DNA of 64,000 nt, from NCBI RefSeq assembly GCF_023008405.1, contig NZ_CP095376.1, positions 1,450,001-1,514,000 on the forward strand. The letters run 5' to 3'. The notes beneath the pieces are model-generated. The model made no database searches, had not been told where the DNA came from, and was given only the letters and a program-made list of their open reading frames with translations. Below are positions 44,338 through 54,504 of the stretch, one piece after another; within the stretch, counting starts at the first letter, position 1; each line of letters starts with the position of its first letter. This DNA comes from Amycolatopsis sp. FBCC-B4732 (GTDB lineage: Bacteria > Actinomycetota > Actinomycetes > Mycobacteriales > Pseudonocardiaceae). The position numbers were made by a program, and so were the translations under genes.

Positions 44338-45087
44338 ATGACCAGCGATCTGGACGGGCGCACCGCCCTCGTGACCGGCGGGGCCGGGGGCATCGGCCTC
44401 GCCTGCGTCCGCGCTCTCGCGGCGGCCGGGGCCAAGGTGCACGTCGTCGACGTGGACGCCGAACGCGCCGAAGCCGCCGCCACCGAAGTCGGGGGCTGGG
44501 CGCACGCCGCCGACCTGACCGACCCCGCCGCCATCGGCGCGCTGCCCGCCGAGGTCGACATCCTCGTCAACAACGCCGGCATCCAGCACGTCGCGCCGAT
44601 CGAGGACTTCCCGCCGGACGTCTTCACCCGCATCCAGGCACTCATGGTCACCGCGCCCTTCCTGCTCATCCGGCACGCGCTGCCGTCGATGTACGCCAGG
44701 GGCTGGGGCCGGATCGTCAACATGTCGAGCGTCCACGGGCTGCGTGCCTCCCCGTACAAAGCCGCGTACGTCGCCGCCAAGCACGGGCTCGAAGGGCTCT
44801 CCAAGGTCGCCGCCCTCGAAGGGGCCGAGCACGGGGTCACCAGCAACTGCGTCAACCCCGGGTACGTCCGCACCCCGCTGGTCGACGGCCAGATCGACGC
44901 GCAGGCCGCCGAACACGACATCCCGCGCGAGGACGTCGTCGCCGAGGTCCTCCTCCGCCGCGCCGCGATCAAGAAGCTCATCGAACCCGGCGACGTCGCT
45001 TCCCTGGTGGTGTGGCTGTGCTCCCCGCGCGCCGGCCACATCACCGGGGCGTCCATCCCGCTCGACGGCGGCTGGACCGCCGCCTAG
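44338..45087 (+). CDS. 3-hydroxybutyrate dehydrogenase (SDR)
   Basis: 249 residues of the classical SDR family. TGGAGGIG (cofactor), NNAGIQHVAPIEDFP, VNMSSVHGLRASPYKAAYVAAKHG (Ser, Tyr, Lys catalytic set) and NCVNPGYVRTPLV are visible; the IQHVAPIE and SVHGLRASPYK segments are characteristic of D-3-hydroxybutyrate dehydrogenase. It would convert 3-hydroxybutyrate to acetoacetate with NAD. ATG 44338 lacks an obvious ribosome binding site. It precedes a transporter and a regulator in the same direction. Confidence 0.85.
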   Translation: MTSDLDGRTALVTGGAGGIGLACVRALAAAGAKVHVVDVDAERAEAAATEVGGWAHAADLTDPAAIGALPAEVDILVNNAGIQHVAPIEDFPPDVFTRIQALMVTAPFLLIRHALPSMYARGWGRIVNMSSVHGLRASPYKAAYVAAKHGLEGLSKVAALEGAEHGVTSNCVNPGYVRTPLVDGQIDAQAAEHDIPREDVVAEVLLRRAAIKKLIEPGDVASLVVWLCSPRAGHITGASIPLDGGWTAA

Positions 45088-45120
45088 ATCCCGCCCGACC
45101 ACAAGGAAGTGGAGCCCGCA

Positions 45121-46449
45121 GTGAGCCAACCCCACCGGTCGGCGATCGCCAAGATCGTCGGCGCGAGCCTGATCGGCACCACCATCGAGTGGTACGACTT
45201 CTTCCTCTACACGTCGGCCGCCGCGCTGGTGTTCAACAAGCTGTTCTTCCCGACGGCGGATCCGCTCACCGGCACGCTGCTGGCGTTCCTGACCTACGCG
45301 GTCGGGTTCCTCGCCCGCCCGATCGGGGGCCTGGTGTTCGGCCACTTCGGCGACCGGCTCGGGCGGAAGAAACTGCTCATCGTCAGCCTGTCGCTGATGG
45401 GGGGTTCGACCGCGCTCATGGGCGTGCTGCCGACGTACGCCTCGGCGGGCGTCGCGGCGCCGGTGCTGCTGACGCTGCTGCGCCTCGTCCAGGGCTTCGC
45501 GCTCGGCGGGGAATGGGGTGGCGCGGTCCTGATCGTCTCCGAGCACGGCGACGACCGCCGCCGCGGGTTCTGGGCGAGCTGGCCGCAGTGCGGGGCGCCG
45601 GGCGGCAACCTGCTGGCCACCGCCGTCCTGGCGATCCTGTCCGCGACGCAGACCGACGCGGCGTTCCTGTCCTGGGGCTGGCGGATCCCGTTCCTGCTCT
45701 CGGCGGTGCTGCTGCTGATCGGGCTGTGGATCCGGCTGGCCGTCTCCGAGTCGCCGGTGTTCCTCGCCGCGCAGCAGCGGGCCGAGGAGCGCGGCGAGAA
45801 GCACGTCCCCGTCGTCGACGTCTTCCGCCACAACTGGCGCGAGGTGCTGGTGACCATCGGCGCGCGGATGGCCGAGAACGTGTCGTACTACGTGATCACC
45901 GCGTTCATCCTGGTGTACGTCACGACCGGGCTGCACCTGCCGAAGGGCATGGGCCTGACCGCGGTCCTGATCGGCTCGGCCGTGCACTTCGTGACCATCC
46001 CGCTCTGGGGCGGGCTGTCCGACCGCGTCGGCCGCCGTCCGGTCTACCTGTTCGGCGCCATCGGGATGGCCGTGTGGAGCTTCGCGTTCTTCGCGTTGCT
46101 GGACACGAAGTCGTCGGTCGTGATCGTGCTGGCCACGACCGTCGGGCTGGTGCTGCACGGCGCGATGTACGGCCCGCAGGCGGCGTTCTTCGCCGAGCAG
46201 TTCCCGACCCGCGTCCGCTACACCGGGCTGTCGGTCGGCGGTCAGCTGTCCTCGATCGCCGCCGGCGCCGTCGCGCCGCTGATCGCCGTTGCGCTCTTCT
46301 CGGCCTGGGGCAGCACGGTGCCGGTGTCGCTGTACGTCACGGGGATGTGCCTGCTCACCGTCATCGCGCTGCTGGCCGCCCGCGAGACCCGCGGGCAGTC
46401 GCTGCACGACGAGGGTGTCCAGGCGGAACAGGCGGCCGTTTCGCCCTAG
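45121..46449 (+). CDS. MFS transporter, metabolite:H+ symporter (MHS) type
   Basis: 442 residues with 12 hydrophobic segments. MHS/ShiA-like landmarks: GTTIEWYDFFLYTSAAALVF at TM1, RPIGGLVFGHFGDRLGRKK in loop 2-3, QGFALGGEWGGA at TM4 and PTRVRYTGLSVGGQ near TM9. It is probably an uptake system for a small organic acid; with the dehydrogenase next door, 3-hydroxybutyrate or a related acid is the natural guess. GTG 45121 is preferred to GTG 45109 because GGAAGTGGAG precedes it. Confidence 0.87.
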   Translation: MSQPHRSAIAKIVGASLIGTTIEWYDFFLYTSAAALVFNKLFFPTADPLTGTLLAFLTYAVGFLARPIGGLVFGHFGDRLGRKKLLIVSLSLMGGSTALMGVLPTYASAGVAAPVLLTLLRLVQGFALGGEWGGAVLIVSEHGDDRRRGFWASWPQCGAPGGNLLATAVLAILSATQTDAAFLSWGWRIPFLLSAVLLLIGLWIRLAVSESPVFLAAQQRAEERGEKHVPVVDVFRHNWREVLVTIGARMAENVSYYVITAFILVYVTTGLHLPKGMGLTAVLIGSAVHFVTIPLWGGLSDRVGRRPVYLFGAIGMAVWSFAFFALLDTKSSVVIVLATTVGLVLHGAMYGPQAAFFAEQFPTRVRYTGLSVGGQLSSIAAGAVAPLIAVALFSAWGSTVPVSLYVTGMCLLTVIALLAARETRGQSLHDEGVQAEQAAVSP

Positions 46450-46450
46450 C

Positions 46451-48322
46451 ATGACCGCCGTGACCGCACCTTCCGACGCGTTGCGCCGGCTGCTCGACCT
46501 CCTCGCCTCCGGGGCGAGCACCGAGCAGCTGGCGCACGTCGTCGTGGCCGCCCGCGCCGAAGGCACCCTCGGCGCGGGCGACCTGGCCGCCTTGGCCAGC
46601 GCGGGCGAGCTGGCCTTGCGGATCCGCGAGACGCTCGCCGAGCACCGGCGCCGTGAAGCCCAGCTCACCGCGCTGTTCGAGACCGCCAGCGAGCTCGCCG
46701 CCCTGTCCGATCCGGACACCGTGCTGCGCTCGATCGTCCGCCGCGCGCGGGCGCTGCTCGGCGTCGACGTCTCCTACCTTTCGCTGAACCGCGAGGCCGA
46801 GAACAAGACCTACGTCCGGGTCAGTGACGGGTCGGTGTCGGCGGAGTTCCAGCAGATCGTGCTGGGCATGGGGGAGGGCCTCGGCGGGCTGGTCGCGCAG
46901 ACCGCGCGGCCGTACGCGACTTCGGACTACTTCACCGACGAGCGGTTCAAGCACACCCGCCACATCGACTCCGGCGTCAAGGACGAAGGCCTGACCGCGA
47001 TCCTAGGCGTCCCGCTGGCGATCGGTCCCAAGGTGCTCGGCGTGCTCTTCGCCTCCGACCGCGCCACCCGGGAGTTCACCGCGGACGAAGTGGCCCTGCT
47101 GTCCTCGCTGGCCGACCACGCCGCCATCGCGCTCGACAGCGCGAACCTCCTCGACCAGACGCGCCGCGCGGTCGCCGAGCTCAACGAAGCCAACGCGACG
47201 ATCCGCGCGCAGAACGAGGCGATGGGACGCGCCGAGGACGCCCACGACCGGCTCACCGACCTCGTGCTGCGCGGCGGCGACCTGCCGGACGTCGCCGCCG
47301 CCGTCGCCGGGGTGCTGCACGGCGACCTCACGGTGTACGACGCCGACGGCACGCTCCTGGCGAGCTCGGCCGCCCCGGCCGCGCTGGACCCGGACGCGCT
47401 CGCCGCGGCCCGGACCGCCGGGCGGGCGGTGTCCACAAAGGACTGCTGGGTGTGCGCGGTGCAGGCCGGTCCCGAGCTGCTCGGCAGCCTCGTGCTGGCC
47501 GGCCGCGCCGGGCTCACCGACCCCGACCGGCGGCTGTTCGAACGCGCCGGCGTCGTGACGGCGCTGCTGCTGATGCTCCGGCGGTCGGTGGTGCGGGCCG
47601 AGGACGAGGTCCGCGGCGAGCTGCTCACCGACCTGCTGACCGCGCCCGACCGCAACCCCCGCGCGCTGCTGGCCCGCGGGCGCCGGCTGGGCATCGACCT
47701 GTCGGCCCCGCACGCGGTGCTGGTCGCGCACGCCGACGGCGGTTCGCGGCGGCGGGTGGCGAGCGCCGCCGCCCGGCACGCGACGCTGGTCGGCGTGCAC
47801 GCGGAGGAGGTCGTGCTGCTCGGCGAAGGCGACCCGGACGAACTGGCCCGCCGGGTGGCCGCCGACCTCGGCGCGGTGACCGGCCGCCCGGTCACGGTGG
47901 GCGCGGCCGGTCCGGCGAGCGGGCCGCCGTCGATCGCGGACGCCCACGCCGAAGCCGCCCGCTGCGTGCGTGCCCTGCTCGCGCTCGGCCGCACCGGTGA
48001 AGGCGCGGCGATGGCCGGGCTCGGCTTCCTCGGCCAGCTGCTGGGCGACCGTGCGGACCTCGACGCGTTCGTCCGGCAGACGCTCGGCCCGGTCCTCGAC
48101 TACGACGAGCGCCGCGGCACCGAGCTGGTCGCGACGCTGCGGGCGTACTTCGCGAACGGGGCCCAGCTCGCGCGCACGAAGGACGTCCTGCACGTCCACG
48201 TGAACACCGTCGTGCAGCGGCTGGAGCGGGTGGCTTCGCTGCTGGGCGAAGACTGGCAGGCGCCGGACCGCGCGCTGGAAATCCAGCTGGCCCTGCGCCT
48301 GCACCGCCTCGGCTCGCGGTGA
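46451..48322 (+). CDS. GAF-domain PucR/CdaR-type transcriptional regulator
   Basis: 623 residues. A GAF domain lies near residues 80-230 (VDVSYLSLNREAENKTYVRV, IGPKVLGVLFASDRATREF), a short coiled coil follows (RAVAELNEANATIRAQNEA), then a CdaR-like middle part and a C-terminal PucR helix-turn-helix (ELVATLRAYFANGAQLART, VLHVHVNTVVQRLERVASLLG). ATG 46451 is one base after the transporter stop. It likely activates the 3-hydroxybutyrate dehydrogenase/transporter pair in response to an acid or its CoA ester. Confidence 0.88.
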   Translation: MTAVTAPSDALRRLLDLLASGASTEQLAHVVVAARAEGTLGAGDLAALASAGELALRIRETLAEHRRREAQLTALFETASELAALSDPDTVLRSIVRRARALLGVDVSYLSLNREAENKTYVRVSDGSVSAEFQQIVLGMGEGLGGLVAQTARPYATSDYFTDERFKHTRHIDSGVKDEGLTAILGVPLAIGPKVLGVLFASDRATREFTADEVALLSSLADHAAIALDSANLLDQTRRAVAELNEANATIRAQNEAMGRAEDAHDRLTDLVLRGGDLPDVAAAVAGVLHGDLTVYDADGTLLASSAAPAALDPDALAAARTAGRAVSTKDCWVCAVQAGPELLGSLVLAGRAGLTDPDRRLFERAGVVTALLLMLRRSVVRAEDEVRGELLTDLLTAPDRNPRALLARGRRLGIDLSAPHAVLVAHADGGSRRRVASAAARHATLVGVHAEEVVLLGEGDPDELARRVAADLGAVTGRPVTVGAAGPASGPPSIADAHAEAARCVRALLALGRTGEGAAMAGLGFLGQLLGDRADLDAFVRQTLGPVLDYDERRGTELVATLRAYFANGAQLARTKDVLHVHVNTVVQRLERVASLLGEDWQAPDRALEIQLALRLHRLGSR

Positions 48323-48421
48323 TTTCTTCCAGCGTGCTGCGGACCAAAGCCCGTTGCGCCGGGCGGCCCTAGCGGGACGCGCCGCCGGCGGGCACCGTGG
48401 AAGCCGACGGATACCGAGACG

Positions 48422-48604
48422 ATGGGGGTTCTCGTGAAGGAATTCGAAAGCGCGCTCGCGGCGGGGTTCGACGTGGTCCCGGCCGAGGTGCCCGGGCTGG
48501 CGATCGACCGGCTCGACGGCGGCCAGTCCACCGGGTCCCCGGCGCGGCTGTGCTACACCTGGGTGGCGGACCCGGTTCGCCCGTCGGTCAGCCCCTGTAG
48601 GTGA
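48422..48604 (+). CDS. Candidate RiPP (TOMM) precursor peptide
   Basis: A 60-residue ORF whose stop overlaps the YcaO gene start by 4 bases (GTGA). The acidic N-terminal part (FESALAAGFDVVPAEVPG) could be the leader bound by the RRE of the next protein. The C-terminal 25 residues hold Gly, Ser, Thr and two Cys (GGQSTGSP, RLCYTWVADP, VSPCR), the residues a cyclodehydratase turns into azolines. An alternative GTG start at 48434, with GGGGG upstream, would give 56 residues. No similarity to a known precursor class is recognised. Confidence 0.65.
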   Translation: MGVLVKEFESALAAGFDVVPAEVPGLAIDRLDGGQSTGSPARLCYTWVADPVRPSVSPCR

Positions 48605-50784
48605 CCGAACCCGCCCCGCCGGTCGTCGGGTTCAAGCGGCACCTCGGTACCGCGGTGGTGCCCGGCGACGCGGTGTACGTGCTCTCCGAAGAAGGCGCGA
48701 CAGCCTTGCGCGGGCCGCACGTGGAGTCCCTGGTCCCGTTGCTCGACGGCACCAGGGACTTCGCGGCCCTGCGCCGGGAACTGCCGCCCGACGTCCCGGC
48801 CGACGAAGCCGCCGGGGTGCTGACGCGGCTCGCCGAAGCCGGGCTGATCGGCCTGCGATCCGCGGTCTCCGACCCCGAATCGGCCTACTGGGACGCGGTG
48901 GACGGCGAACCCGCGTCCGGCCGGGTCGCGGTGCTCGGCGCGGACCCCGCGACGGTGGACGTCCTGCGCGCGGCCGGGCTCACCGTGGCCGAGGACGCCG
49001 GCCTTTCCCTCGTGCTGTGCCACGACTACCTCGCCGGCCACCTGTCCGATGTGGACGCCGAGCACCGCCGCACCGGGCGGCCGTGGCTGCTCGCCAAACC
49101 ACTCGGGGCGCGGGTGTGGCTCGGCCCGTTCTTCACCCCCGGTGACGGTCCGTGCTGGCACTGCCTGGCCGCGCGGCTGTGGGGCAACCGGCCCGCCGAG
49201 GCCCACGTCCGTGCCGCGCTCGGCTTGCCCGGCCCGCTGCCGCGCCCGGAAGTCGCCCTCGCGCCGCTGACCGCCGTCGCGCTCAACCTGGTGGCCCTCG
49301 AAGCGCGCAAGTGGCTGGCCGGGCAGCGGTACCCGGGCCAGCGGGCGCTGTGGACGTTCGACAGCCGCGACCTGACCGGCGAGCGGCACGAGGTGCGCGC
49401 CCGCCCGCAGTGCGCGTCCTGCGGGAACCCGGAGCTGGTCCGCGACCGGACACGGCGGCCCGTGGTCCTCGAATCCCGCCCCAAGACCCAGTTCGGTGGC
49501 GGCGGGCACCGCGCGTTGCCGCCGGAGCAGGTGCTCGGCGAACACCGGCACCTGGTCAGCCCGCTGACCGGCGTCGTCAAGGAGCTGCGCCGCGACACGC
49601 GCGGCCCGGCGCTGTTCGCGTCGTTCCGCTCCGGGCCGAACACCGCGCTGGGCCGGCGTGGTGCCGAGCGGCTGCGCACGGCGCTGCGCAGCGAGAACGG
49701 CGGCAAGGGCGTCACCCCGCTCCAGGCCGAGGTCGGCGCGCTGTGCGAGGCCCTCGAACGGCACAGCGGGCACTACGACGGCGACGAGGAACGGGTGCGC
49801 GCCAGTTTCCGTTCGCTGGGCGACAAGGCCGTGCACCCCGACACGTGCCAGTTGTTCCACGAACGGCAGTTCGCCGACCGGGCGCGGATCAACGCGCGGC
49901 ACGGGCCGTTCCAGTTCGTCGGCGAGCCGTTCGACGACGACGAAGTGCTGGACTGGACGCCGGTGTGGTCGCTGACCCGCGGCGAGCACCGGCTGTTCCC
50001 GACCGCTCTGCTGTACTTCGACGCGCCCGGGCCGCCGTCCGTGCTCGCCGACTCCAACGGCAACGCCGCGGGCGGCACGCTGGAAGACGCGGTGCTGCAA
50101 GGAATGCTGGAGGTCGTGGAACGCGACGCCGTCGCGCTGTGGTGGTATAACCGCACCCGGCACCCGGCGGTCGACCTGGCCGCGTCCGGCGACCCCTGGA
50201 TCGCTGAACTGCGCGAGGTGTACGCCGGGCTGGGGCGCGAAGTCTGGGTCCTCGACGTCACTTCCGACCTCGGGATCCCCGTGCTGGCCGCCGTCTCCCG
50301 GCAGGTCGGCGGACCCCGCGAGGCGATCATGCTCGGGTTCGGCGCGCACCTCGACCCGGCCGTCGCCCTGCGGCGCGCGCTGACCGAGCTGAACCAGCTG
50401 GTGCCCGCGGTCCTCGACGGGTGGGACGGCGGTGACGACCCGGACGCGGTGCGGTGGCTGCGGGACGCGACGGTGGCCACCGAGCCGTACCTGCTGCCCG
50501 ATCCGGCGTGCCACCCGCTCGCGCCCGACCTCTCCTCACCCGACCTGCTGGCCGACGTGCACCTGGTGCGGGCGCGGCTGGAAGCGGCCGGGCTCGAGGT
50601 GTTCGTGCTCGACCAGACGCGGCCCGACATCGGCCTGCCCGTGGTCAAGGTGATCGTGCCGGGCCTGCGGGGCTTCTGGGCGCGGTTCGCGCCCGGCCGG
50701 CTCTACGACGTGCCCGTGCGGCTCGGCCGGCTGACCGAGCCGCACGGCTACGACGACCTCAACCCGATGCGGATCTTCCTCTAG
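48601..50784 (+). CDS. Fused TOMM cyclodehydratase: RRE, E1-like and YcaO domains
   Basis: 727 residues. Residues 8-90 are a PqqD-like RiPP recognition element (FKRHLGTAVVPGDAVYVLSE, ALRGPHVESLVPLLDGTRDF). A ThiF/E1-like middle follows, with zinc cysteines GPCWHC near 186 and QCASC near 272. From about 330 a YcaO domain shows the ATP-binding pattern: QAEVGALCEALERHSG, NGNAAGGTLEDAVLQGMLEV, ERDAVALWWYNR and RALTELNQLV. It would use ATP to cyclise Cys/Ser/Thr of a precursor to azolines. It ends NPMRIFL without the proline-rich tail common in this class. No dehydrogenase or transporter lies downstream. Confidence 0.9.
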   Translation: MTEPAPPVVGFKRHLGTAVVPGDAVYVLSEEGATALRGPHVESLVPLLDGTRDFAALRRELPPDVPADEAAGVLTRLAEAGLIGLRSAVSDPESAYWDAVDGEPASGRVAVLGADPATVDVLRAAGLTVAEDAGLSLVLCHDYLAGHLSDVDAEHRRTGRPWLLAKPLGARVWLGPFFTPGDGPCWHCLAARLWGNRPAEAHVRAALGLPGPLPRPEVALAPLTAVALNLVALEARKWLAGQRYPGQRALWTFDSRDLTGERHEVRARPQCASCGNPELVRDRTRRPVVLESRPKTQFGGGGHRALPPEQVLGEHRHLVSPLTGVVKELRRDTRGPALFASFRSGPNTALGRRGAERLRTALRSENGGKGVTPLQAEVGALCEALERHSGHYDGDEERVRASFRSLGDKAVHPDTCQLFHERQFADRARINARHGPFQFVGEPFDDDEVLDWTPVWSLTRGEHRLFPTALLYFDAPGPPSVLADSNGNAAGGTLEDAVLQGMLEVVERDAVALWWYNRTRHPAVDLAASGDPWIAELREVYAGLGREVWVLDVTSDLGIPVLAAVSRQVGGPREAIMLGFGAHLDPAVALRRALTELNQLVPAVLDGWDGGDDPDAVRWLRDATVATEPYLLPDPACHPLAPDLSSPDLLADVHLVRARLEAAGLEVFVLDQTRPDIGLPVVKVIVPGLRGFWARFAPGRLYDVPVRLGRLTEPHGYDDLNPMRIFL

Positions 50785-51983
50785 CACTGGCCGTCGGCGA
50801 GCACCCAGTAACCCGGCGACGTCTCGCGCAGCGCGTGCGTCGTGAAGGTGTTCCACAGCCCCATGGCCTGGTTCGAGCCGTTGGCGTAGGTCTGGCCACC
50901 GCTCTGGTGCGCGCGCCCGGCCTGCGTGTGGGCGTAGTTGCTGGCGCTCACGCACGTCCCCGACGGCGGGGCGCTGGTCGTCGTCGTGGTGGTCGGCGGC
51001 GCGACCGTCGTGGTGGTGCCGGTTCCCTTGTCCAGGCCCCAGAACACGCCGGTGTAGTAGCTGGAGCAGATCCCGGCGAGGAAGTACGCGCCGGTGCTGC
51101 CGCACTGCGTCGTGCCGCTGCCCGGGTCGACGGCGGTGCCGTGGCCCATGCCGGCGATCGAGTACAGCTGCACCTTGTCGCCATAGTTCGTCACCGTCGT
51201 GCTGCCGGGCAGGGACTGGGTGTTGGACGGCGTCTGCGAAACGCCGTGCACCGCGGTCCACTGGTCGCGCAGTTCGGTGCCGTTGACCGGGTAGACGGTG
51301 TAGTCGCCGGTGCCCTGCCAGATCGCGACACGCGGCCACGGCCCGCCGTAGCCGGGGTTCTGCGCGGTGACCTTCGCGGCCCACTGCGCCGGGCTCAGGT
51401 TCTGGTTGTTCTGCTGGCAGCCCGACGCCTGCGTGATGCTCGTGGCGCACTGCGCGGGGAGGCCGGCCATGACACCGCCGCCGGCGAAGACGTCCGGGTA
51501 CGCGGCGAGCAGGTCCGCGGTCATCCCGCCGCCCGCCGAAAGCCCGGTGACGAACACGCGCTTGGTGTCCGAGCCGTGGTCGGCGACCGCCTTGTCCACC
51601 ATGGACTTCACCGACGCCGCTTCGCCCTTGCCGCGGGTGTCGTCGGCGGGGTCGAACCAGGTGAAGCACTTCAGCGAGTTGTTCGCGGTCGACGTCTGCG
51701 GGAACACCACCTCGAACCGCCACCGGTCGGCCAGCGCGGGCCAGCCGGAGTGGGCGTAGTAGTCCGCGGCGCTCTGCGTGCAGCCGTGCAGGGCGACGAC
51801 GACCGGGCGGCCGGCTTCGAGCCCGGCGGGGGTGTAGGTGTACATCGCCAGTGCGCCCGGGTTGGCGCCGAAGTCCGGCACCTGGACCAGGGACGACGGC
51901 GGCGGGTCGGCGGCGGCCACCCCGACGGTGGTGAGCACGGCGGCGGTGATCGCGGCGAGTCCGGCGAAGGCGAGCTTGCGCAA
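50781..51983 (-). CDS. Secreted PHB-depolymerase-type esterase
   Basis: 400 residues from TTG 51983, chosen because AAGGAGTTCACC precedes it and a signal peptide (LAFAGLAAITAAVLTTVGVAAA) follows directly; the frame also stays open upstream. The alpha/beta hydrolase has VVALHGCTQSAADYY (oxyanion), the nucleophile in FVTGLSAGGGMTADLL, and the catalytic His in GMGHGTAVDPG. A Thr/Pro linker leads to a C-terminal disulfide domain (CVSASNYAHTQAGRAH to GYWVLADGQC) like those that bind polymer. It would hydrolyse extracellular polyhydroxyalkanoate or an ester. It converges on the YcaO gene with 4 bases of overlap. Confidence 0.85.
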   Translation of the reverse strand: MRKLAFAGLAAITAAVLTTVGVAAADPPPSSLVQVPDFGANPGALAMYTYTPAGLEAGRPVVVALHGCTQSAADYYAHSGWPALADRWRFEVVFPQTSTANNSLKCFTWFDPADDTRGKGEAASVKSMVDKAVADHGSDTKRVFVTGLSAGGGMTADLLAAYPDVFAGGGVMAGLPAQCATSITQASGCQQNNQNLSPAQWAAKVTAQNPGYGGPWPRVAIWQGTGDYTVYPVNGTELRDQWTAVHGVSQTPSNTQSLPGSTTVTNYGDKVQLYSIAGMGHGTAVDPGSGTTQCGSTGAYFLAGICSSYYTGVFWGLDKGTGTTTTVAPPTTTTTTSAPPSGTCVSASNYAHTQAGRAHQSGGQTYANGSNQAMGLWNTFTTHALRETSPGYWVLADGQC

Positions 51984-52157
51984 GGTGAACTCCTTCTCGT
52001 CGTTGAGAGGGTTTCCCGCGACGCTAAGTCGGACCGGCGGCGGGGACCATGTGGCCGTCCACCACATCGGCGCCGGAATTCATGGTGCCCGGCGGGGTGG
52101 CTCTCCGGCGGTGCGGACGCTTGAGTTCTGTCTCATCGACGAGACCGGAGGTGGACC

Positions 52158-53525
52158 GTGCGCGGTTGGCTGACCTGGGTACTGGCGGGTGCGCTCGCGG
52201 CGGCGCTGCCCGCGACGGCGTCGGCTTCGGCCGGGCGCTGCCGGGCGGAGGTGCCCGGCGCGGAGAAGTCCGTCGCGGTGTGCCTGGACGACCTGACGAC
52301 GACCGGCACGCTGAAGTCCGGCCACACGGTCGAAGCCGATTGGGCCGGCTTGACGTCGGCGGGACTCCCGTCGCCGAGCGGCGTCCCGGGCGTCCAGGTC
52401 GACGGGTACTTCCCGGACTCCTCGACGTCGAACGCGAACAACGGCTGGAACCACGACTCCCAGTTCGTGCTGCGGATGCCCGACCGCTGGAACGGCGGCC
52501 TCGTCGTGGCCGGTTCGCCCGGCGTCCGCCGCCAGTACGCGAACGACCGCGCGATCGGCGACCAGGCACTGGCCGAGGGCTACGCCTTCGCCGCCACCGA
52601 CAAGGGCAACACCGGCGCGGCGTTCTACACCGACGGCGTCCGCCCGGGCGACGCGCTGGCGGAGTGGAACACGCGCGTCACGCAGCTGACGCTCGCCGCC
52701 CGCGGCGCGCTGACCCGCCACTACGGCCGCCCGCCGGCGAGGACGCTGGCGGCCGGGCTGTCCAACGGCGGATACCTCGTCCGGTGGCAGCTGGAGAACC
52801 GGCCGTGGCTCTACGCCGGGGGCGTCGACTGGGAGGGGACGCTGTGGCGTGCCGATGGACCGAACCTGTTCACGTTCCTGCCCCCGGCCCTGCGGGCGTA
52901 CCCGGCTTACGCGGCGGGGTCGCCGGCCGCCCACCAGTCCATTTTGGACGCGGGCTTCGCGCCGGGCTCGGAGTTCCTGTGGGACTACCACTACCGCGTC
53001 TACTGGGACCTGACCCAGCGGATCTACCGCGAGGAGGCCGACCCGTCGTTCGACGGCGCGGTTCTGGCCGGAACCCCTTTCTGCGCTTCGGGAACGCCGG
53101 CGTGTGACGCGGATTATGCGTACTCGTCCCGGCCTGCTTCGGTGGTGCGGGCGGTGGAGCGGATTTCGCTGACGGGGCGGATCGGGAAGCCGTTGCTGAC
53201 GCTGCACGGGACGTGGGACACGCTGCTGCCGATCACGCGCGATTCCGACGTCTACGACCGGATGATCAGTGCGTCCGGGCGCGGGCCGCTGCACCGGTAC
53301 TACCGCATCGAGGGCGGCAACCACGTCGACGGCCTGGTCGACCAGTACCCGGACCGGTTGCGGCCGTTGGGCCCGTGCTTCCGGACGGCGTTCGACGCGC
53401 TCGCGGGCTGGCTGCGCGGGGTGCGCCCGCCGGCGTCGGCGACGATCGCCCGCCCCGCCGGAGCGACCCCGGCCGAGCTGGCGACCTCGTGCGACCTGGG
53501 TCGGGGGCGGGTCACTCCGGGGTGA
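52158..53525 (+). CDS. Secreted tannase/feruloyl-esterase-like alpha/beta hydrolase
   Basis: 455 residues with a signal peptide (WLTWVLAGALAAALPATASA). Family features include SGVPGVQVDGYFPDSSTSNA, RMPDRWNGGLVVAGSPGVRR, the nucleophile in TLAAGLSNGGYLVRW and the acid/His region LTLHGTWDTLLPI with IEGGNHVDGLVDQ. These match a tannase or 3-hydroxybutyrate-oligomer hydrolase-like group; an ester of a phenolic or hydroxy acid is the substrate class. GTG start with GGAGG upstream. It is divergent from the PHB-depolymerase-type esterase. Confidence 0.75.
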   Translation: MRGWLTWVLAGALAAALPATASASAGRCRAEVPGAEKSVAVCLDDLTTTGTLKSGHTVEADWAGLTSAGLPSPSGVPGVQVDGYFPDSSTSNANNGWNHDSQFVLRMPDRWNGGLVVAGSPGVRRQYANDRAIGDQALAEGYAFAATDKGNTGAAFYTDGVRPGDALAEWNTRVTQLTLAARGALTRHYGRPPARTLAAGLSNGGYLVRWQLENRPWLYAGGVDWEGTLWRADGPNLFTFLPPALRAYPAYAAGSPAAHQSILDAGFAPGSEFLWDYHYRVYWDLTQRIYREEADPSFDGAVLAGTPFCASGTPACDADYAYSSRPASVVRAVERISLTGRIGKPLLTLHGTWDTLLPITRDSDVYDRMISASGRGPLHRYYRIEGGNHVDGLVDQYPDRLRPLGPCFRTAFDALAGWLRGVRPPASATIARPAGATPAELATSCDLGRGRVTPG

Positions 53526-53777
53526 CGCCGCCGCCTTTCGCGATCGAGCCGGCGGGCCAGACCGCTCCGCGAACCGGACGTTGACGAAGTACCCGGTCCG
53601 GCCGAATTCGCTGTCGCCGAACTCCGCCGCCGCGCTCTTCCAGCCGGTGTCGAACGCGTCGCGGTGGTCGGCTCGCGTGCCGCCCCGCAGGATCGCGGCC
53701 CCCACGAGAACGGGCGTGGGCGAGCGCCGTCGGTGCCGGGAACCGTGCGTCATCCCACCACGCCAGGAGCGCCCGGG
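53512..53777 (-). pseudogene. Degraded coding remnant between hydrolase and GH6 pseudogene
   Basis: On the minus strand one frame reads FDTGWKSAAAEFGDSEFGR, TGYFVNVRFAE and then another gives AVWPAGSIAKGGGVTPE with a stop at 53512. Together they look like the C-terminal part of a lost gene broken by a frameshift near 53570. I cannot name the family. Its end overlaps the hydrolase 3' end by 14 bases. The region could also simply be noncoding. Confidence 0.3.
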
Positions 53778-54504
53778 TCAGTCGCCCTTGAGCAGGTGGT
53801 TCGCCAATGCCGGGCTGAACGTCCCGGCCGGCACGCCCGTCCCGTAGCCGCAGCTGCCGTCCGAGTCGCCCGGGACCTTGATCCACAGCTGCAGCTCCGG
53901 GCCGCCGCCTGGCTGGGACGTCGCGCCCAGCTTGCGCTTGGGCGGGTTGCCCCACTCCGGATCCGTGCCGTGGCCGGCGCCGTTGCGGCTCGTGTCGACC
54001 ACGAACGGGGCCGCGTACCCGAGGGCCGAGCCGACCGCTTTGCCGTAGGTGGTCGATTCGGCCGTGGTGGAGAAGTTCGACACGTTGAGCACGAAGCCGT
54101 GGATCGACTGGACGCCCACCTGCTTCAACCGGGACGCCGCGGTAGGCCTGAGGGCCGCCCGCGCCGCCGGTCGACTCGCCGCCGCAGTCGCGGCCCGGGA
54201 TGTTGTAGGCGACCAGGACCGGGAGCTTGTCGGCGTAGGTGTACTTGTCGACAGCGGTGCGGATGTCGCCGCTCCAGGTGCCGAACCAGCGGGCGCCGGG
54301 CTTCGTCGCGATCGACGTCCGGATCGGGCCCGCGAGGGTGTCGGACGGGTGGTCGCGGACCCAGACCGCCGGGTTCGAGTCGGGGTCGACGTGGAAGCCG
54401 TTCGTCTTCTCGAGCGGGTTGCCGTCCGCGGCGAGGGCCGGGGGCGCGGGGGCGAGGCCGGTCAGCGCGAGCGCGGCGGCCACGAGCCAGGTCGAAATGC
54501 GCAT
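53778..54504 (-). pseudogene. GH6 cellulase pseudogene with internal deletion
   Basis: A signal peptide (WLVAAALALTGLAPAPPALA), NPLEKTNGFHVDPDSNPA and VLVAYNIPGRDCGGEST identify the N-terminal third of a secreted GH6 endoglucanase/cellobiohydrolase. Near 54140 the frame breaks and the -1 frame resumes with QVGVQSIHGFVLNVSNFSTT, VVDTSRNGAGH and LWIKVPGDSDGSC to a normal end. The stretch that should carry the catalytic acid and EPDAL motif is absent. Deletion plus frameshift makes an active cellulase impossible. Confidence 0.85.

Follow-up and report, generated by a model that had tools for sequence, protein, structure and literature searches.

A predicted two-gene cassette of a short precursor peptide and a fused cyclodehydratase for azoline peptides in Amycolatopsis and related genera

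Introduction

Can a RiPP system consist of no more than a precursor peptide and a single modifying enzyme? This question is raised by a locus on the 10.19-Mb chromosome of Amycolatopsis sp. FBCC-B4732, where a 60-aa ORF (48422–48604) is joined via a GTGA overlap to a 727-aa ORF (48601–50784) within the window, i.e., the whole 64,000-nucleotide stretch of DNA that was analysed and to which coordinates refer unless stated otherwise. A substrate and one enzyme would together make up about the smallest testable azoline RiPP system. Throughout, L, G and P labels denote loci, genomes and proteins of the present analysis, and close orthologues of the window enzyme (66–100% identical) are referred to as class A.

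Results

A recurrent GTG start defines a 56-aa precursor

The original prediction drew the precursor as the 60-aa ORF overlapping the enzyme gene. Both this ORF and its overlap were found as described, but its start was not upheld, since a GTG at position 48434, yielding a 56-aa peptide (i.e., MKEFESALAAGFDVVPAEVPGLAIDRLDGGQSTGSPARLCYTWVADPVRPSVSPCR), recurs in relatives. The ATG four codons before this GTG is absent in L010 and L011, and the protein collection lists the peptide in both lengths, 56 aa (P0128) and 60 aa (P0131).

48424..48428, + strand: ribosome-binding site GGGGG of the precursor gene, with sequence and spacing the same in most class A relatives
48434..48604, + strand: precursor peptide gene, 56 aa from the GTG at 48434, based on recurrence in relatives, alignment and profile matches

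The 56-aa peptide has a computed monoisotopic mass of 5887.91 Da and gave no Pfam or NCBIfam match at E <= 1. In 14 of the 22 class A loci the precursor stop codon and the aligned enzyme start share 4 nt; in the other eight the precursor ends 13 or 16 nt inside the aligned enzyme frame, with a Val codon at the overlap. The next gene (50781–52067) lies on the opposite strand and is convergent, as had been noted from the sequence. A promoter scan found none, a terminator scan returned one terminator-like site (vs. 0.5 expected), and an Rfam search gave no match.

The downstream gene encodes a fused cyclodehydratase

The RRE–E1–YcaO architecture originally proposed for the large protein held up under profile matches, structural homologues, invariant CxxC pairs and a model of the N-terminal domain.

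48601..50784, + strand: fused RRE–E1-like–YcaO cyclodehydratase, 727 aa (TIGR03604, TIGR03882, PF02624, TruD/LynD alignment)
48601..48858, + strand: predicted RRE or peptide clamp, residues 1–86 (alignment with the TruD/LynD N-terminus, AlphaFold2 model)
49078..49578, + strand: E1-like, leader-binding domain with CxxC pairs at 49153–49164 and 49411–49422 (TIGR03882 over residues 160–326, invariant Cys)
49702..50670, + strand: YcaO domain, residues 368–690 (PF02624, 7.6e-107; invariant Glu/Asn/Arg in 35 sequences)

TIGR03882 and TIGR03604 scored 149 bits (cut-off 36.9) and 263 bits (cut-off 219), respectively, and residues 6 to 723 align with both TruD (8e-159) and LynD (4.1e-158). The two CxxC pairs (C185/C188 and C271/C274) are invariant in 35/35 aligned homologues, as are the Glu, Asn and Arg positions of the YcaO domain. 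For the N-terminal region, Pfam returned only a winged-helix match below cut-off, and the fold assignment was based on sequence alignment and an AlphaFold2 model. The best model had a mean pLDDT of 80.3 and a pTM of 0.77 (65.8–73.1 mean pLDDT for the other four) and was weak near the C-terminus; its N-terminal domain consists of strands and helices, with elements at residues 8–86 and a block pLDDT of 80–90 from residue 11 onwards. As modelled, this domain fits the expected RRE.

The enzyme C-terminus reads NPMRIFL (50761–50781), where the second Pro of the NPxPxFL motif is replaced by Arg. This position is Pro in 12 of the 22 class A enzymes (among them those of L009 and L014), Arg in nine (including the window enzyme and that of L099) and Ala in one. 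In other cyclodehydratases the second proline of the C-terminal motif matters and, if the same applies here, the Pro-to-Arg change could alter activity.

The pair recurs in 22 genomes of four genera

A search through the 390 genomes of the family revealed a YcaO relative at E <= 1e-230 in 122 genomes, and class A in 22 of them, i.e., 15 in Amycolatopsis and seven across three other genera (five Lentzea, one Umezawaea and one in a third genus). In a set of 49 related loci, ten were class A, all from Amycolatopsis or Umezawaea. A tree of 57 proteins placed class A in one clade (support 100/100), which under midpoint rooting lies among a second class of the same family (referred to as class B, see below), the node that unites it with the five nearest class B rows having a support of 94/93.

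The original prediction could have failed here had orthologous YcaO genes lacked a conserved upstream ORF. Instead, an upstream peptide was present at all 22 class A loci, amounting to 26 peptides because four loci contain two complete copies. When a profile of 22 of these peptides was run against the six frames of the 390 genomes (13 candidates scored per genome), it gave 26 matches at E <= 0.001 in 22 genomes; these are exactly the class A genomes, and every match sits beside a class A YcaO gene. A wider search within the genus (64 candidates per genome, E <= 0.01) added five weak matches, with those in G001 and G028 immediately preceding class B YcaO genes. The protein collection contained 48 proteins matching the precursor profile among 8000 scored candidates, and the named ones among them were called 'hypothetical protein' or 'Uncharacterized protein'. 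The gene pair is thus real and exceeds chance: a chance ORF is ruled out by its presence at 22/22 loci, the specificity of the profile, the invariant residues and the composition of leader and core.

A conserved leader precedes a core built from Cys-Arg and Thr-Arg units

48434..48517, + strand: leader, residues 1–28, with the motif LAIDRLD at 48497–48517 as predicted RRE-binding strand (invariant residues, Cys-free; RRE binding putative)
48548..48601, + strand: core unit LCYTWVADPVRPSVSPCR, with Cys40 and Cys55 as predicted azoline sites (pN/pS, motif counts)

Across 22 aligned precursors, M1, F4, F12 and D28 are invariant and the leader carries the motif LxIDxLD. The precursors range from 53 to 151 aa, with a conserved N-terminus and a Cys-rich, often repeated C-terminus. 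Leaders contain no Cys at all (0 in 1860 residues of 66 leaders), compared with 189 in 2391 residues of 44 representative cores. The 62 distinct cores contain 105 Cys-Arg pairs vs. 21.7 ± 4.2 in shuffled versions of themselves (none of 2000 shuffles reached 105) and 57 Thr-Arg pairs vs. 23.4 expected, while the inverse Arg-Cys occurs once vs. 21.9 expected. Core units end at these dipeptides, as in AEPVVATICR (L009), AETGSARGYGGTCYCR (L011) and the Thr-Arg units of Lentzea P0167; at least one [CT]R is present in 53 of the 62 cores, with a maximum of six, and none in nine. The Lentzea precursors P0158 and P0167 have repeat units with Ser or Thr before or near Arg and few Cys, which amounts to a natural Cys-to-Thr swap.

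Direct DNA repeats were detected in the precursor region of all four relatives tested (L011, L012, L014 and L042), among which L011 carries a tandem repeat with a period of 48 nt in three copies; the same test found none in the window precursor region. Moreover, the core changes faster than the leader, with a mean identity of 0.40 vs. 0.72 over 13 locus pairs whose enzymes are at least 90% identical.

The core unit of the window behaves differently. LCYTWVADPVRPSVSPCR is nearly unchanged in eight precursors, and the pN/pS of this unit (CYTW...SPCR) is 0.15 over 28 pairs, vs. 0.57 for the leader over 36 pairs, to which one additional CYTW precursor contributes, the pairs being non-independent in both cases. 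Its SVSPC motif occurs in 28/62 cores, other genera included, and CYTW in 13/62. Judged by these ratios, the window core is held by purifying selection and is not hypervariable. The original expectation of a conserved leader followed by a varied core therefore proved right for the leader and for the family's cores, but wrong for the core of the window member itself.

Only the precursor and enzyme genes are common to all loci

Genes were called up to 7.5 kb on either side of the 22 loci (L035 and L039 end at contig ends). The gene caller reported the enzyme at 22 loci and the precursor at 19; those it missed, in L037, L105 and L108, are among the upstream peptides described above (that of L037 in L010). 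Only enzyme and precursor are present at all 22 loci, any other gene being found at 15 at most. Four other gene clusters cross genus lines, each by one locus outside its main genus, and were taken as generic families because of their low identity (25–36% in compared pairs) and differing places. A short-chain dehydrogenase upstream of the pair in L106 clustered with 3-hydroxybutyrate dehydrogenase, but at 29% identity (E 1e-5) and with a different placement it was dismissed as a generic family match.

Within the genus, 3-hydroxybutyrate dehydrogenase, MFS symporter and PucR regulator genes are widely common upstream, and PHB depolymerase downstream. The window region 44338–53525 shows the cassette within a run of 3-hydroxybutyrate/polyhydroxybutyrate genes (dehydrogenase, symporter, regulator, PHB depolymerase and a possible oligomer hydrolase), a link not kept in other genera. 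In the surroundings of L106 (Umezawaea) and L107 (Lentzea), Pfam annotation of eight genes returned regulators, a short-chain dehydrogenase, a mycothiol-dependent-type enzyme, a periplasmic binding protein, a GGDEF/EAL protein, NB-ARC proteins and a GDSL lipase. In L107 (1697–5940), two NB-ARC/TPR (STAND-type) proteins are encoded upstream of the cassette.

PucR and the esterase were found in 69 and 29 of 80 genus genomes, respectively (E <= 1e-120), and in 13 genomes both lie within 5 kb of each other without class A. Eight of these sites were inspected. In G039 and G008 (the two empty sites, L127 and L128), PucR and esterase adjoin without the pair: the window DNA matches up to ca. 48313 and again from ca. 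50780, and all between is absent. In G064 (L129), YcaO residues 22–80 and 703–727 remain and no precursor was detected; this site (423–645, reverse-complemented) is a deletion remnant with N- and C-terminal YcaO scraps between PucR and esterase. One other called gene is present at the sites in G078, G017 and G047, and four in G031 and G030. The empty sites and the remnant indicate that the pair is present or absent as a unit. Since, moreover, other genes intervene between PucR and the pair in L103, L104 and L112, and flanks differ in other genera, the PHB-type neighbours were rejected as cassette members, and the two-gene extent first proposed is borne out.

Two irregularities were seen in neighbouring genes. 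The PHB depolymerase match beside the cassette holds one TAA stop in G029 and G051. The glycosyl hydrolase family 6 gene at 53512–54504 of the window looks frameshifted, PF01341 matching two pieces in different frames, and is one 318-aa ORF in a sister genome (L099).

SagB dehydrogenase genes adjoin class B loci of the family, not class A

The locus had been described as lacking a dehydrogenase, protease or transporter. Pfam annotation of the five flanking genes in the window agrees, as no peptide dehydrogenase, protease or exporter was recognised among them; the 3-hydroxybutyrate dehydrogenase and metabolite symporter upstream are not kept at all loci. SagB was likewise found in 0 of 48 class A rows, representing 22 distinct loci with flanks of 1.5–10 kb. 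In contrast, SagB adjoins the YcaO gene in 23/23 distinct class B loci examined within the family, and in 12 of 39 other relatives, most of them Streptomyces and some with short flanks.

It had also been suggested that enzymes encoded elsewhere might act on the product, and a SagB-family dehydrogenase does exist in the window genome, at 536927–537451 beside a class B YcaO gene at 533734–535971. At this locus (G000:C1:533734–537470, or L098:9668–13469), a second fused cyclodehydratase is directly followed by the SagB/ThcOx-type dehydrogenase. The latter was detected with TIGR03605; PF00881 gave 13 other matches that did not include it.

Within the same family, class B enzymes are ca. 54–64% identical to those of class A. 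A loose motif scan detected, ahead of the YcaO gene in 32 of 62 class B loci, a candidate peptide whose leader has the similar motif L-x-I-[DE]-x-L-[DE], and none at the window genome's own class B locus. Unlike class A cores, these candidates are short and without CR arrays. In Streptomyces class B candidate precursors (L058, L076, L080, L068 and others), the leader motif is followed by a common short FT(I/L)C(I/V) core.

Discussion

The best reading of the locus, and in our judgement a probable one, is a minimal RiPP cassette of two genes in which the leader directs azoline formation. From homology we infer docking, ring formation, cleavage after Arg, export, fate and biological role as follows. 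Leader residues 1–28 would dock via the LxIDxLD strand on the RRE of the fused enzyme, after which the YcaO domain, using ATP, would convert core Cys into thiazoline and, in some relatives, probably also core Thr/Ser into (methyl)oxazoline, with Cys40 and Cys55 as the predicted ring sites in the window peptide. The core of many relatives appears multiplied into tandem units ending in Cys-Arg or Thr-Arg, so that one leader could deliver several rings. A housekeeping protease cutting after Arg might then release azoline-bearing oligopeptides, and oxidation would not be encoded within the cassette. The following observations count against or qualify this reading: no export, protease or immunity gene is common to the loci, which is unusual for an antibiotic RiPP; nine of the 62 cores are without [CT]R; and nine of the 22 enzymes have Arg at the C-terminal Pro position.

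The pair might instead not be autonomous, with its azolines oxidised to azoles in trans by the class B SagB and other processing perhaps shared as well, which we regard as possible but on balance unlikely. Consistent with this scenario, all 22 class A genomes have a SagB-family match elsewhere, 21 have a class B YcaO (E <= 1e-230), and midpoint rooting places class A within the SagB-bearing class B enzymes. However, the SagB match exceeds the cut-off in only 19 of the 22 and is sub-threshold in the other three, and co-occurrence is weak evidence because class B is common anyway (63 of the 80 genus genomes at the same threshold). The nested position of class A and its lack of SagB would also fit a class B cluster decaying after dehydrogenase loss, with the short window core as a degenerate leftover, and both the YcaO fragments that alone are left in G064 and the Pro-to-Arg change at the enzyme C-terminus point the same way. 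Yet such decay seems quite improbable given that the frames are open in 22/22 genomes of four genera, that the window core unit is under purifying selection, and that cores elsewhere diversify through tandem units and gene duplication.

Moreover, the YcaO superfamily also makes thioamides and amidines (the available parts of PMC8120280 and PMC8442711), and the window enzyme could in principle do the same rather than form azolines. Among solved structures TruD and LynD, with their E1-like part, are the best homologues, both TIGR03604 and TIGR03882 score above cut-off, and no TfuA was recognised in the five neighbouring window genes that were scanned, all of which argues for azoline chemistry and makes the other two very improbable here. 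Finally, the GTGA overlap may couple translation, as would suit an upstream ORF that is a regulatory or translation-coupling leader peptide and no substrate at all. This idea, which we find barely credible, was rejected on the 22/22 occurrence, the alignment, the composition and the profile search: the peptides vary widely in length behind a conserved N-terminus, end in a Cys-rich and often repeated C-terminus, and come in two complete copies at four loci.

Building on the two-gene cassette as the preferred reading, we tentatively suggest, with rather less than even confidence, a new RiPP family in which the cyclodehydratase is the sole dedicated enzyme and a shared leader serves a fast-evolving array of CR/TR units. 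Its rings would stay azolines, and housekeeping cleavage at Arg would yield strain-specific peptides with no dedicated exporter or immunity. As neither would be needed, the product may work within the cell, or serve to bind metals or in recognition, and not be a classical antibiotic.

In terms of known systems, the cassette has the two hallmarks of a TOMM locus, i.e., a cyclodehydratase that comprises both a C (E1-like) and a D (YcaO) component (TIGR03882 and TIGR03604 above their cut-offs) and, at 22/22 loci, a ribosomal precursor with a leader and a Cys/Ser/Thr core beside the enzyme. The cyanobactin cyclodehydratases TruD and LynD (PDB 4bs9 and 4v1t) resemble the window enzyme in combining E1-like and YcaO parts in a single polypeptide. 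The cassette differs from cyanobactin clusters in its leader, in units punctuated by [CT]R rather than by cyanobactin cleavage sites, and in having no recognised adjoining PatA/PatG-type protease or SagB-kind dehydrogenase; neither PatA-type nor PatG-type proteases, nor TfuA, were found among the five flanking genes in the window or the eight near L106 and L107. Leader-directed azoline formation, as predicted for the cassette, is shared with goadsporin and plantazolicin.

According to the available part of a TOMM survey (PMC4603692), goadsporin clusters contain a B protein and a dehydratase, and cyanobactin precursors also have hypervariable core regions. The same part describes the mobilisins, a TOMM family of Mobiluncus, Rhodococcus and other Actinobacteria that, like the cassette, pairs a fused cyclodehydratase with a short nearby peptide, low in Cys/Ser/Thr. 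Among the TOMM families named there, mobilisins are the nearest by description, and are set apart on the same basis by the B dehydrogenase in their clusters, as class A loci are without SagB. A literature search that included this part of the survey, and that was neither exhaustive nor proof of novelty, revealed no description of the family. We conclude that the cassette belongs to the TOMM kind as a minimal, apparently undescribed variant of only two genes, with azoline peptides as its predicted product.

The 62 distinct natural cores, some with Thr-Arg instead of Cys-Arg units, provide variants with which co-expression could test how YcaO enzymes choose their substrates, how several cores on one precursor are processed and whether oxidation is needed. 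The system also raises the question of what a RiPP would be for when no transporter, protease or immunity gene can be recognised, and of why its core diversifies in some species and stays constant in others.

Other YcaO proteins of the window's genome

Besides the two fused cyclodehydratases, the window's genome encodes a third long YcaO protein (L114:6716–10770; 786 aa, TIGR03604 but no TIGR03882), whose gene precedes one for an MFS efflux-type transporter and a further small gene, and a fourth YcaO protein (L115:8203–9564; 453 aa) that matches TIGR03604 and has no E1-like match.
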